In this document: one piece after another, positions 8,015-26,329 of the stretch
Numbering within the stretch: position 1 is the first letter of the stretch
How the letters are laid out: the number at the start of each line of letters is the position of its first letter
Origin: Azospirillum lipoferum 4B
GTDB taxonomy: Bacteria > Pseudomonadota > Alphaproteobacteria > Azospirillales > Azospirillaceae
Length of the DNA: 64,000 nucleotides
NCBI RefSeq assembly: GCF_000283655.1
Contig: NC_016586.1
Coordinates: forward strand, 263,001 to 327,000
Reading direction: 5' to 3'
Translations under genes and position numbers: made by a program
The notes under the pieces: model-generated
Databases searched by the model: none
What the model was told of the DNA's origin: nothing
The model's input: the letters and a program-made list of their open reading frames with translations, nothing else

Positions 8015-9034
8015 TTAGGTTGTCGGCGCGGGCGCGCAGGCTTTTTTGGTGGCTGGCGCATCGAGCCGGGCGATAGCCGTCATTTGCGCGTACAGATCCT
8101 TGTATCTCTTGGTGTCCGATCCATTCCTTACGAAATAGACCCAGCGGGGCTTTCTCTCGGCCATCTCGAAAACAATGACCTCAATGTCATCTGCAATGAT
8201 GAAGCCATAATTCCAATCAGTCAAGCTGAAGCCATTGTTTCGCATTATGGTTGACAAATCGGATTTCACAACATATCCGGGGGAGATGTTTTTCTCCTTA
8301 TGTGTCAATACAGTCGGCCAGATGCGTTCTGCTTCCTTGATGTCGTCGACAAGAAAGATGCGGCTGACATGGACGCCCCCGTCAGCCCGCCTCAGGTTGG
8401 TGAGTTCATGGACACCAGAGAACGTACCGGATTCGATAAAATCAGGTCCAATATAGTTTACGAATAGGAGGCTTTTTGTTGACCTTCCAATAATGGATGA
8501 CCATATGGACTTTAATGTTCCCTGGTCTTGCACATCGATCTTTCCTAGCGCTTTCATGTCAGCGTATTTCAGATCGCCGGACAAGGCATGCTGAAGACAA
8601 TTTACCTGCTGAGTGTTCTCCGCTATCGACCTCCGGAGATCTTCAAGCAAATCCAGGCCTCTATGCCGATGTGTCGCAAACATCGAGAACGACAAAATCG
8701 CAACTACCGCGATGTAAGACAAATATATAGAAATAATCTCATATATACTTATATCTCTTTTGAATGTGATCGTTATCGTGATTGCCAGAAAAATTGTTGC
8801 GACGATTATCGTAACAACCGCGATATCACTTTTGACACTTGATATTGCTGATTTGATCGCATCAATAAAATCGCTGTTAATATTACCTTTGATGTTTCCG
8901 GGCAATTCCTCAGGATTTCCCTCAGAATTATTGGAGCCTTTCAATTCTCTCTCTCCGCTTGTGAAAAACATCAGAGTGGGCGCCGATAGGCTATCATATC
9001 GCTGGCTGTAGGCAAGCTGAAGGTGACTAGCCAC
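8015..9034 (-). CDS. Two-helix membrane protein with a possible PLD-like C-terminal domain
   Basis: 339 residues from a GTG at 9034; an ATG at codon 22 (8971) is an alternative, and neither has a clear ribosome site. Two membrane helices lie at about 71-90 and 98-120. After a linker rich in charged residues, the C-terminal part carries LLFVNYIGPDFIESG, HVSRIFLVDD (222-231), SPGYVVKSDL (251-260) and NYGFIIADDIEVIVFE. This order of hydrophobic strands, with RIFLV followed by a GxxV segment and a final DD strand, resembles degenerate phospholipase-D-like sensor domains; this is inference. Base composition is clearly more AT-rich than the neighbours, so it was probably acquired by transfer. It truncates a TRAP operon. 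Confidence 0.7.
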   Translation of the reverse strand: MASHLQLAYSQRYDSLSAPTLMFFTSGERELKGSNNSEGNPEELPGNIKGNINSDFIDAIKSAISSVKSDIAVVTIIVATIFLAITITITFKRDISIYEIISIYLSYIAVVAILSFSMFATHRHRGLDLLEDLRRSIAENTQQVNCLQHALSGDLKYADMKALGKIDVQDQGTLKSIWSSIIGRSTKSLLFVNYIGPDFIESGTFSGVHELTNLRRADGGVHVSRIFLVDDIKEAERIWPTVLTHKEKNISPGYVVKSDLSTIMRNNGFSLTDWNYGFIIADDIEVIVFEMAERKPRWVYFVRNGSDTKRYKDLYAQMTAIARLDAPATKKACAPAPTT

Positions 9035-22099: not shown

Positions 22100-22148
22100 A
22101 CACGGTATGGTGTTGGACCGGTCCGGTTACCGCGCGAAAGGACACGCC

Positions 22149-22667
22149 ATGGCCGTCGCCAAGACCACGATCTGCCTCTGGTTCGACAAGGACGCCGAGT
22201 CCGCCGCCCGCTTCTACGCCGAGACCTTCCCCGACAGCGCCGTGCACGCCGTCCACCGCGCCCCCGCCGACTATCCGTCCGGCAAGGCGGGCGACGTTCT
22301 GACGGTCGAGTTCACCGTCGCTGGCATCCCCTGCCTCGGCCTGAACGGCGGCCCGGCCTTCCCCCACAGCGAGGCCTTCTCGTTCCAGATCGCCACCGAC
22401 GACCAGGAGGAGACCGACCGCTATTGGACCGCCATCACCGGCAACGGCGGCCAGGAGAGCGCCTGCGGCTGGTGCAAGGACCGCTGGGGGATCTCCTGGC
22501 AGATCACGCCGCGCGTGCTGACGGACGCGCTGGCGGCGGGTGGCGAGGAGGCCAAGCGGGCGTTCGAGGCGATGATGGGGATGACGAAGATCGACGTGGC
22601 GGCGATTGAGGCGGCGCGTAGGGGGACTGTTATTCTCTCTGACTTTGGGCGATCAAAACAAAATTAG
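22149..22667 (+). CDS. VOC family protein (PhnB-like)
   Basis: 172 residues from the ATG at 22149. KTTICLWFDKDAESAARFYAETFPDS is the standard start of the PhnB/3-demethylubiquinone methyltransferase-like glyoxalase fold, followed by the CGWCKDRWGISWQITPRVL motif. The last 17 or so residues (RGTVILSDFGRSKQN and nearby) do not look like the family, and the DNA turns AT-rich within them. The 3' end was probably replaced when the adjacent nuclease-ATPase island arrived. Enzymatic role unknown. Confidence 0.8.
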   Translation: MAVAKTTICLWFDKDAESAARFYAETFPDSAVHAVHRAPADYPSGKAGDVLTVEFTVAGIPCLGLNGGPAFPHSEAFSFQIATDDQEETDRYWTAITGNGGQESACGWCKDRWGISWQITPRVLTDALAAGGEEAKRAFEAMMGMTKIDVAAIEAARRGTVILSDFGRSKQN

Positions 22668-22786
22668 CAAAAAATGATGATTTAGTGCGAGCTTTTTCCT
22701 ATCGCTCTAGCTGTTGACCTGCTCGGTCTTCAAGCCGTCTTCGCATGCAGTTGCAGCCATAAAGCGCATTACAGTAGCGGCGCGGC

Positions 22787-25294
22787 GTGATTTCGGGTAC
22801 CGTGCCTATATTAAGCAACCCTAAAGAGACGGTGACAAAGTTGAATAAAACTAACGGCCGTTTTGCTCAATTGCGCGCTGTTCAGGATAAGCAGCGCCGT
22901 GGATACGTGTTTGAACAATATATTCGCGAAGACCTCCCTTGGGGATTCCGGCCTCCATTGTCTGTTGGCACTGATTCAGAGCAAATTGATGCTTTCTTTG
23001 AGTTTAATGGATGGCATTTTCTTGTTGAATGCAAAGCAAAATCTGAAAATATCACCCCGGGATCTCATGATTGGGAAGATTTTGAACTTAAAATCCGGAG
23101 GCGGGGCGGCCAATGCATAGGCTTATTTTGTTCATTGTGGCCGTTGTCTGAGGGGGTATATTCTGCCGCAGACAACTTGAATAGAGCAAATCATACAGTG
23201 ATTATTATTGCTGGTCAACAATGGGATGAGATGGAATTTTCAGGTTTGACATATAGCGATCTTTTGCGATTTCTCGTTAGTGAAGCGCGCGCACGAAGCC
23301 GTACTGTCTCGCCTCCAATTGTTGAAATTCAGAAACAACTTGCTAATGCCTCCGAGAACGAGAAGCATGCTCGCTCGGTACTTCGCTCTGCCTCTACAGT
23401 GTTTTTAAGACGGCATCGTTCTCCAAGACACGATCAATTATATGTTGAGCGTGCTCTTGACCGGGAAATACGTGATCTTCTTACTCCGCTTACACCTTCA
23501 AAATTGGGGACTCATTCTCGGACTACGCAGCGCGGTGTTTCTCATGGGCGTGCGCGGCCAATACAATTGGCAATTATACGAGATAACTCTGGGGCAGGGA
23601 AAACAACGCTTTCTGCCAACCTGGCAGAAAGTTCAACTCACCTTGGGGTTGTGAAAGCTGCACTGGAGCCGGATATTGATGGAATCAGAGAGGTTTTGCA
23701 GAGACTTAGTCGTGATGATGGGCTTACAACATTGAATGTTATAAATAAGCCCATGTTGTATGTGCTTGACTCATTAGATGAAGCTTCAATATACCCTCAA
23801 AAAAACACGGAACTGAGAGGTCTATTCAATGCCCTTAAAGACCTTAACGATTTAGCAGAGAGTCGGGGTTTGATATGCTATCCAATTCTAATATTACTTA
23901 CGATCCGCCACGAATATTGGCGTGATTGGGAAAGTCAGCTTGAAGGCAGAAAATCTCGCATATTCACCAAAAGATTTAGCAGATTTTCTGAAAACGAGCT
24001 TTCGATTGCAATTAAGAAGTACGAAGATTCTTACAAGTATAGCATTGAAAACAGAAATGCTGATCTATTAGATGCGCTATCTCATCCTTTTACATTGCAA
24101 GTCTATTCTGAAGCTAATGAATATGCGGGGCCAGTGGATGCGAGAGAGCATTTTGGCTCAAGTGTTCTTCATTTATTCTTCGAAAGAAAAAAAGAAGATA
24201 TTCTGAAAAGACCGGTTCAGGGATTTGACGGTGAAACAATGCTTAAAATCTGCACGGCAGTGGCTGTCGAAATGGTTTGCTTGCGATCTAATGAAATGTC
24301 AGAGGAAGACGCCAAAAGAGTAATATCTAAATCCGATATAACTCTCAAAGCTCGTTCCAGCGCTATTATCAGAATTCTAAAGTCTGAACAGATATTTTCT
24401 CCAGAAAGCTCTGAGGGTGAATATATACGTTTTCGCCATAGTCGATTTCTAGAGTATCTACTTGCTATCGAGATTAAAGAATTATTCAAATCCGATAGGA
24501 TAAGGCCAAGCGAGGGCAGCTCCTCAATTACCAAATATGCGTATTTGCCTGAATACAGTATTTCTGGCGCAAATAACACCAATATTATGTATAAAAACTT
24601 AATCAAAAAATATGATAACGCAAATTATAATCATTCTGGACTTGGTAACAGTATCGGAGAGATATATACGATAGTTAGTGCGACGAAATTTGCTTCGCCA
24701 TACGTGGTATTCGACTACCTTAAATCAATATGTTCCAGCGACGAAAGGCTTTTGAAGAAAGTATCTATGGCTCTTGCCAATTCGTCAAAATACATGGATG
24801 CATTTCTTCTGCAGAAAAGATTGGAATTGGGTAGGGGAAATGGCCTAAAGTCAGAAGAAGTGCGAGCAATCAAACTAGGAATGGCAGACAAGAATCCAGA
24901 AATTTGCTGGAATGGCTTTTTTGTGCTTGCGGCAGCGATTAGCGAGCAAAATAATAAGTCAATTATTCAAGCGTTCGAACTCGCATGGGATACAAACGTT
25001 AATCGGTCAGATCTGTATAAAATAATACCGAAGCTGAAAAAGCATGGTTTGTTATTCGATGAAGAATTTCTTCGTCGCTTAAGAAAATCGTACGATTGTC
25101 AATGCTGGCTGTCTTTTCTCGATCAAATCGATGTACAGCTTGCTAAGGATTTTCCAGACATCTGGAACCATATGGGAGGCGCCAGTTTGGAACAGGAAAT
25201 CAAAACTAGGCCAGGAACTGAATGGAATCACGTATTAAAATTGCTTAATTACGTTACTCACGGCGAGCCATTCCCTCTAGGTGGCGTTTTATGA
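22787..25294 (+). CDS. PD-(D/E)xK nuclease fused to NACHT/STAND-like NTPase
   Basis: 835 residues from a GTG; a TTG at 22841 is an alternative and there is no in-frame ATG near the start. Residues 38-90 look like a restriction-type nuclease: RGYVFEQYIRE, then D68 in EQIDAFFEF and E81-x-K83 in FLVECKAK, giving the D-x12-ExK core. Residues about 255-420 are an NTPase: IIRDNSGAGKTTLS (Walker A, K272) and MLYVLDSLDEAS (Walker B, D328, D331-E332), the NACHT/STAND form. The C-terminal 400 residues are mostly helical with no repeat I can name. Composition is strongly AT-rich against the flanks. Known anti-phage Avs proteins join the same two modules, so defence is the leading hypothesis; sequence alone does not prove it. 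Confidence 0.72.
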   Translation: MISGTVPILSNPKETVTKLNKTNGRFAQLRAVQDKQRRGYVFEQYIREDLPWGFRPPLSVGTDSEQIDAFFEFNGWHFLVECKAKSENITPGSHDWEDFELKIRRRGGQCIGLFCSLWPLSEGVYSAADNLNRANHTVIIIAGQQWDEMEFSGLTYSDLLRFLVSEARARSRTVSPPIVEIQKQLANASENEKHARSVLRSASTVFLRRHRSPRHDQLYVERALDREIRDLLTPLTPSKLGTHSRTTQRGVSHGRARPIQLAIIRDNSGAGKTTLSANLAESSTHLGVVKAALEPDIDGIREVLQRLSRDDGLTTLNVINKPMLYVLDSLDEASIYPQKNTELRGLFNALKDLNDLAESRGLICYPILILLTIRHEYWRDWESQLEGRKSRIFTKRFSRFSENELSIAIKKYEDSYKYSIENRNADLLDALSHPFTLQVYSEANEYAGPVDAREHFGSSVLHLFFERKKEDILKRPVQGFDGETMLKICTAVAVEMVCLRSNEMSEEDAKRVISKSDITLKARSSAIIRILKSEQIFSPESSEGEYIRFRHSRFLEYLLAIEIKELFKSDRIRPSEGSSSITKYAYLPEYSISGANNTNIMYKNLIKKYDNANYNHSGLGNSIGEIYTIVSATKFASPYVVFDYLKSICSSDERLLKKVSMALANSSKYMDAFLLQKRLELGRGNGLKSEEVRAIKLGMADKNPEICWNGFFVLAAAISEQNNKSIIQAFELAWDTNVNRSDLYKIIPKLKKHGLLFDEEFLRRLRKSYDCQCWLSFLDQIDVQLAKDFPDIWNHMGGASLEQEIKTRPGTEWNHVLKLLNYVTHGEPFPLGGVL

Positions 25295-25327
25295 TGGCCG
25301 CGCCCGATGCCACCGATCCAATTCCCC

Positions 25328-26325
25328 TCACCCCACCCCCACATCATCCCGAATGCAAGCCACCGAATGCCCCGGCGCCACCTCGCGCAGCGCCCGGGCC
25401 TCCGGCTCCGCACAAGCCGGCAGCGCGAACGGGCACCGCGTCCGGAAGACGCAGCCGGATGGCGGGTTCATCGGGCTCGGCACGTCGCCGTCCAGCAGCA
25501 TGCGGGTCTTCGGCGCGTCGGGGTCCGGGTCGGGGGCGGCGGACAGCAGGGCCATGGTGTAGGGGTGGTGCGGGCGCTCGTAGAGGGAATCGCTCGGCGC
25601 GATCTCCATCAGGCGGCCGAGATACATCACCGCAACCCGGTCGCTGATGTAGCGCACCACCGCCAGATCATGGGCGATGAACAGCACCGCCAGCCCCAGC
25701 TCGCGCTGCAAATCGCCCAGCAAATTCACCACCTGCGCCTGCACCGAGACGTCGAGCGCCGACACCGGCTCGTCCGCGACGATGAAGTCGGGTTCCACCG
25801 CCAGGGCGCGGGCGATGCCGATGCGCTGGCGCTGGCCGCCGGAGAATTCGTGCGGGAAGCGGTCCATGGCGTCGGCGCTCAGGCCCACCTTCTCCAGCAA
25901 TGCCGCCACCCGGTCGCGGCGGTCGGGGCGGGTGCCGATGTTGTGGATCGTCAGGGCCTCGCCGATCACGTCGCGCACGCGCTGGCGCGGGTCGAGGCTG
26001 GCATAGGGGTCCTGGAAGACGATCTGCATGCGGCGGCGCTGCGCCCGCATCTCGGCGGTGCCCAAGCCGGTGATCTCCTGCCCGTTGAAGCGGATGGAGC
26101 CGGCGGTCGGCTCGATCAGCCGCAGGATGCTGCGCCCGGCGGTGGTCTTGCCCGATCCCGATTCGCCGACCAGCCCCAGCACCTCGCCGCGGTTCAGGTC
26201 GAAGGACAGGTCGTCCACCGCCTTCACCCAGCCGACCGGCCGTTGCAGCAGCCCGCCGCGCACGGCAAAGCGCTTCTCCAGATTGCGAACGCTCAGCAGG
26301 GGCTGTTCGGTAACGGTATCGATGC

Positions 26326-26329
<4 letters not shown>
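25328..26329 (-). CDS. Peptide ABC transporter ATP-binding protein, DppF type
   Basis: 333 residues with Walker [11 protein letters not shown]-loop [14 protein letters not shown], signature [15 protein letters not shown] and Walker [13 protein letters not shown]. The oligopeptide/dipeptide C-terminal region ([12 protein letters not shown], then [12 protein letters not shown] with Cys residues) is complete. The ATG overlaps the stop of the DppD-type gene. It is the last gene of the minus-strand peptide operon and stops 33 bp from the end of the AT-rich island gene, with which it converges. Confidence 0.92.

Follow-up and report, generated by a model that had tools for sequence, protein, structure and literature searches.

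A lone gene encoding an N-terminal nuclease joined to a STAND-type ATPase was found in an AT-rich insert of Azospirillum lipoferum 4B, within a stretch of 64,000 nucleotides (NC_016586.1, positions 263,001 to 327,000; hereafter the window, whose first letter is position 1). The best reading of the 835-residue open reading frame (ORF) at 22787-25294 (+) is that of a real, horizontally acquired gene that stands alone. Its most probable role, to which we assign roughly three chances in four, is that of a stand-alone nuclease-STAND switch against phages (or plasmids) that entered an exchange slot as a single gene, and the best reading of its operation is by analogy with bNACHT25 or Avs4. The protein would add a nuclease branch, and a sensor for which no relatives were found, to the bacterial STAND immune proteins, a class related to the nucleotide-binding leucine-rich repeat receptors of animals and plants. 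The start codon is uncertain, with GTG 22787, GTG 22832 and TTG 22841 among the candidates.

Residues 20-185 (22844-23341, +) are a PD-(D/E)xK nuclease of an Mrr-like branch, with a predicted fold and retained catalytic residues, as judged from alignments, an AlphaFold model and fold matches in the Protein Data Bank (PDB). The mean confidence of the model was 83-96 for the blocks covering residues 61-170, and the modeled domain matched FokI-type and Can2/Card1 nucleases, which points to the PD-(D/E)xK fold. An earlier note, made from the sequence alone, had placed a nuclease core at D68, E81 and K83, and these residues were found there (D68, 22988-22990; E81-x-K83, 23027-23035; all +), with E43 upstream. 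Altogether 96 nuclease relatives were found and 80 were kept; as these included two pairs of identical fragments, 78 references remained, of which 76 were aligned with the nuclease domain of the window protein and 60 with the whole protein. E81 was conserved in all 76 and position 83 held K or R in 76 of 76. D68 and E81 were also retained in six relatives that had been collected without a motif filter. No Pfam family, Mrr_cat included, matched residues 1-198 directly at E<=5. Scanning with the nuclease alignment located three loci in viral contigs.

The nuclease is followed by a mostly helical linker (residues 186-255; 23342-23551, +), as read from the secondary structure of a model whose confidence drops below 50 from residue 231. 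Residues 256-560 (23552-24466, +) are best read as a STAND/NACHT-type ATPase with a winged-helix region, based on motifs and sub-threshold profiles; together with the alignments and predicted fold of the nuclease, this supports the nuclease-STAND fusion that had been proposed. The predicted GAGKTT was present at residues 269-274 as part of DNSGAGKTT (266-274; 23582-23608, +), yet the strict Walker A pattern GxxxxGK[ST] is unmatched because D266 takes the place of the first glycine. The proposed Walker B, VLDSLDE, lies within LYVLDSLDE (324-332; 23756-23782, +). Further motifs follow in STAND order, namely LTIR (TxR; 371-374), HPF (433-435) and FRHSRFLEYLLA (549-560; 24431-24466, +), which conforms to FxHxxFxEYxxA. 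FxHxxFxEY is a signature of NACHT/STAND proteins, and all five motifs are read here in their usual sense. Among 20,000 shuffled versions of the protein, none kept GxGK[ST], Walker B and FxHxxFxEY in this order and spacing, for patterns that were picked after the sequence had been seen. In Pfam no STAND profile scored above its curated cut-off; the sub-threshold matches were nSTAND3 (E 0.0066, 16.6 bits against a cut-off of 27.2) and nSTAND_NTPase4 (14.4 against 27 bits). A PDB sequence search with the protein gave no match, and AlphaFold produced no confident fold for residues 256-560, either in the full context or alone. Assignment to the nSTAND3 family was rejected as too weak, as hhalign against five nSTAND3 proteins gave a probability of 27% (E 7e-4) over residues 261-386. 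The profile PF20720 was likewise discarded as a genome query, since at the threshold used it matched every genome (81 of 81) and each of the 14 controls and was therefore non-discriminating.

The C-terminus (residues 561-835; 24467-25291, +) is the presumed sensor. In the available text of PMC8195603, STAND NTPases are described as coupled to repeats that form superstructures; in the window protein, a helical prediction of low model confidence may correspond to such an arrangement. None of the searches recovered a credible relative of residues 195-835: this part gave no match in phages or plasmids at E<=10 and none in viral contigs. Overlapping samples from the order (82 genomes), the class (385) and the phylum (398) contained no full-length relative, and tblastn detected none in plasmids and phages. 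Peptide-pattern scans of genome and viral collections also returned no full-length relative, an absence that counts for little as these scans are insensitive. Besides matches to the nuclease domain, only one locus (L071) surfaced, with a 94-residue P-loop match, and it was rejected as a relative because by eye it encodes a biotin-synthesis enzyme.

Two other explanations bear on these domains. The protein could be a modification- or structure-dependent restriction enzyme of the Mrr/McrBC kind, in which the ATPase would serve as a motor or DNA-gated switch, the C-terminus would read DNA and foreign DNA would be cut directly. One nuclease relative (L002) does match Mrr_cat (1.1e-6), the list of fold matches includes McrBC, AspBHI and MspJI, and several weak hits of the nuclease domain in plasmids carry the annotation restriction endonuclease. 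However, a DSLDE Walker B followed by FxHxxFxEY is a STAND pattern, unlike that of McrB, a DNA-reading domain is absent from the Pfam matches, and the nuclease is N-terminal like that of bNACHT25; a restriction enzyme is unlikely. A broken or dormant gene, that is an immune-type protein with a dead nuclease or ATPase kept by chance, would account for the Asp at the first P-loop glycine, for the change of several positions that are near-invariant in the alignment of nuclease relatives, and for the fact that no clear ribosome-binding site was discernible by eye ahead of GTG 22787. Against it stand an 835-codon frame free of stops and the retention of D68, E81, K83, Walker B and the remaining STAND motifs, and we regard this explanation as very unlikely.

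The foreign origin of the nuclease-STAND gene is visible in its composition and borders. A composition scan of the window showed that the GC content falls from about 0.70 to 0.38-0.47 between approximately 22,700 and 25,250. The AT-rich island that had been placed at about 22640-25294 proved to be slightly wider, as the end of flank homology to sister records delimits an insert of 2698 bp with a GC content of 0.42 at 22626-25323. In both B510 and A. oryzae the left-flank homology ends at 22625, while right-flank homology begins at 25324 (B510) or 25328 (A. brasilense MTCC4039). The flanks share 91-93% identity with plasmids of Azospirillum, including B510 pAB510a, A. oryzae KACC 14407 and A. 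ramasamyi. Two convergent genes face the insert, which lies between their stop codons. On the left is a VOC/PhnB-type gene (22107-22667, +; PF06983, E 4e-49), which lost its native stop codon at the junction and is read through to 22667; on the right, the insert abuts the stop codon of a gene assigned by Pfam to an oligopeptide ATP-binding cassette (ABC) transporter ATPase (25328-26329, -). The GC content at third codon positions is 0.36 in the 835-residue ORF, as against 0.94 in the VOC gene and 0.91 in the ABC gene. An island consisting of a prophage or an integrase carrier was rejected, because the one ORF takes up 2508 of the 2698 bp. In line with the earlier description of a lone gene without integrase or insertion sequence, no transposase or integrase was present among the ORFs scanned in this insert and in those of the sister genomes. 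ARAGORN detected no tRNA in the window. An inverted repeat of 19 nucleotides (89%) connects the end of the nuclease-STAND gene (25261-25279) with the ABC gene (25581-25599) and may be due to chance.

To place the insert in context, 45 genomes of the genus Azospirillum were surveyed for both flanks. The VOC gene was present in at least 36 of them and, among the matches listed, both flanks converged on one contig in ten genomes. All ten of these loci were occupied, by inserts of 1211-3911 bp with a GC content of 0.36-0.52, and no empty seam occurred among the listed matches. The count of ten excludes G015, whose flanks lie on two contigs in a compatible arrangement, and G025, G026 and G035, in which right-flank likeness extends over only 50-68 bp. 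PADLOC returned four strong matches, one weak match and no match for the remaining five occupants. The four strong matches belong to known or candidate defense families, namely fused PARIS AriAB (G023, E 9.7e-56), UG13a DRT (G022), PDC-S31 in a DUF2971 protein (G046, E 1.2e-24) and beta with cll (G001; 4e-42 and 6e-55), the last accompanied by three smaller ORFs; the corresponding inserts are L053 (1680-3383, +), L054 (B510), L055 and L056. The B510 seam encodes a reverse transcriptase of 600 residues (RT_UG13a, E 9.3e-216). The weak match is an AAA/SMC-type ATPase with some similarity to PtuA/AriA (G021, E 8e-8). The other occupants are a DUF4427 protein (G038), a GHKL ATPase (G032) and proteins without a family (G031, G034 and G042). 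At the A. oryzae seam, a GHKL ATPase (HATPase_c_3, E 6e-27) carries a C-terminal nuclease-like part that matches SduA_C below the cut-off (E 3e-4), and PADLOC REase_II matches across its ATPase part (E 5e-18). The scans of the inserts covered the ORFs that were neither small (<120 residues) nor GC-rich, and L060 (G015) was scanned by Pfam alone.

All-against-all tblastx of 15 inserts gave no pair with protein similarity at E<=1e-3. Two controls addressed the low GC content of the seam: in 21 genomes without the ABC gene after VOC, the lowest 200-bp bin within 2 kb was about 0.50 and most were above 0.6, and at 13 loci where the ABC gene occurs without VOC no bin fell below 0.53 in the stretches covered. 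At two of the 21 loci with VOC elsewhere (L165 and L166), GC-poor stretches of 0.51-0.62 and 0.38-0.52 begin about 2.4 kb past VOC. In three loci (L052, L057 and L059) the 3' part of the ABC ATPase gene is also present as a fragment, 339-477 bp long and 79-89% identical to the window, which lies near the intact gene and is separated from it by what by eye is an HxlR/SDR gene pair. This arrangement is an older rearrangement at the slot; in G021 and G042, where the fragment and the pair precede the intact ABC gene, the insert was measured up to the fragment.

The VOC/ABC seam is a one-slot defense hotspot of Azospirillum, with conserved flanks and variable, defense-rich content. The earlier note had named homologues that are all housekeeping genes at conserved loci as an outcome that would speak against its reading of the gene; this picture did not appear, and the site is a variable slot shared with known defense genes. 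A host regulator or stress-response ATPase without a link to phages is the least likely explanation, for although STAND ATPases also serve as regulators and two sister genomes carry regulator-like genes by eye beside the same left flank (TetR/reductase in G035 and SDR/HxlR in G026), which also weighs against a purely defensive slot, the protein carries a nuclease, its gene is foreign in composition, the 82 genomes of the order gave no full-length match and the slot is one that also harbors known defense genes. Among the titles listed for literature on Azospirillum defense and on defense hotspots at convergent genes, no description of this locus was found. The slot is of practical use for discovery, as ten Azospirillum genomes and the window each hold a different occupant between the same genes. 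Since four of ten occupants are known or candidate defense genes, the five inserts that PADLOC left unmatched (L049, L050, L051, L057 and L058) and the gene in the window are promising candidates for new systems. Moreover, a slot that is this small and lacks recognized mobility genes makes the swapping of immune genes testable.

DNA similarity between inserts was confined to their ends, where seven blastn hits (E<=0.05) fell within about 56 bp, at the same end and in the same orientation; all seven involve L063. Compared with the ends of L063, an element of approximately 25 bp was detected on the left in 7 of 15 inserts (p<=0.006) and on the right in 5 of 15 (p<=0.008), L063 being counted in both. 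It occurs at the left and/or right ends of L049, L051, L053, L054, L055, L061, L063 and L065, is an imperfect palindrome by eye and is missing from the window insert (p 0.97 left, 0.61 right). A dispersed repeat was rejected for the left element, as 0-4 copies per genome compare with 0-2 for a reversed control in five genomes. Left and right copies as mutual direct repeats were unsupported (shuffle p 0.13-0.61 in the four loci with both), and the end copies of L055 were similar in inverted-repeat orientation (p 0.006). The element may be left over from an ancestral spacer or integration site, and recombination between flanks would be the simplest account of exchange at the slot. A more ambitious combination is doubtful: that the seam is a dedicated swapping point for single immune genes, that the end elements trace a specific mechanism of integration or exchange rather than plain flank recombination, and that the window gene and the familyless occupants are new immune systems, the window gene representing a STAND class in which an unrelated sensor is combined with a nuclease branch for which no fusion had been seen before.

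As a stand-alone nuclease-STAND switch, the protein might work as follows, each step being modeled on bNACHT25, for which the available text of PMC12169576 reports that protection requires nuclease activity and that DNA is degraded upon infection. After arrival as a lone gene between two convergent genes of an Azospirillum replicon, the STAND ATPase and the C-terminus would hold the protein off in the resting state. Binding of a phage product, or of a host protein altered by infection, to the C-terminus would trigger nucleotide exchange at the P-loop and oligomerization, which would bring the N-terminal nuclease domains together. DNA could then be cut with a metal held by D68, E81 and K83, and the infection would be stopped, with the cell itself probably lost in the process.

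Elsewhere in the window, another AT-rich island with a single gene (8015-9034, -; GC content 0.42-0.52) has a carboxyltransferase-domain (CT_C_D) gene on one side and fliG on the other. It encodes a protein of 339 residues in which membrane helices are apparent by eye and for which Pfam gave no match above the cut-off. Its two sides were matched in different records among six plasmid records, and it may mark another junction.

Several known systems resemble the nuclease-STAND protein in part. The closest sequence relatives of residues 20-185 are stand-alone Mrr-like nucleases of about 300 residues (80 loci). All but three of these 80 ORFs continue for at most 84 residues past the nuclease match. 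A canonical GxxxxGK[ST] P-loop was lacking on either side of the nuclease in every one of them, so these relatives offered no example of this branch joined to a P-loop. The Can2/Card1/Cdn1 nucleases, ancillary to CRISPR, are gated by a CARF domain, for which the window protein has no Pfam match. Avs had been cited in the earlier note as a bacterial STAND defense protein with a comparable fusion; none of the PADLOC families, those of Avs among them, matched the window protein at E up to 10. The Avs4 (AVAST) chain has 1534 residues, while about 275 residues follow the ATPase motifs in the window protein, and the fold match to Avs4 is near background. Pfam includes an NCH1 model, and neither this model nor NACHT matched the window protein at E<=1. 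The nearest published plan is that of bNACHT25 and bNACHT32 (clade 6), described in the available text of PMC12169576 as single proteins with an N-terminal PD-(D/E)XK DNase, a STAND-type ATPase and a helical NCH1 C-terminus. The order of nuclease, ATPase and helical C-terminus is common to both, and compactness relative to Avs, previously taken to hint at a new subtype, is by itself no such sign because this described plan is shared. In this comparison, made with the bNACHTs by description, the window protein differs in lacking those two Pfam matches and in an ATPase that leans weakly towards nSTAND3. The slot itself is similar to cDHS1/2 of Pseudomonas aeruginosa, for which the consulted part of PMC10250203 reports conserved flanking genes, variable defense content, lower GC content and a proposed exchange by homologous recombination of the flanks. 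According to the same part, cDHS1 spans 1-224 kb (median 26 kb) and has a detectable mobile gene in 71% of cases, whereas in the Azospirillum slot, which is bordered by the two stop codons, 1.2-2.7 kb usually accommodate one main gene.
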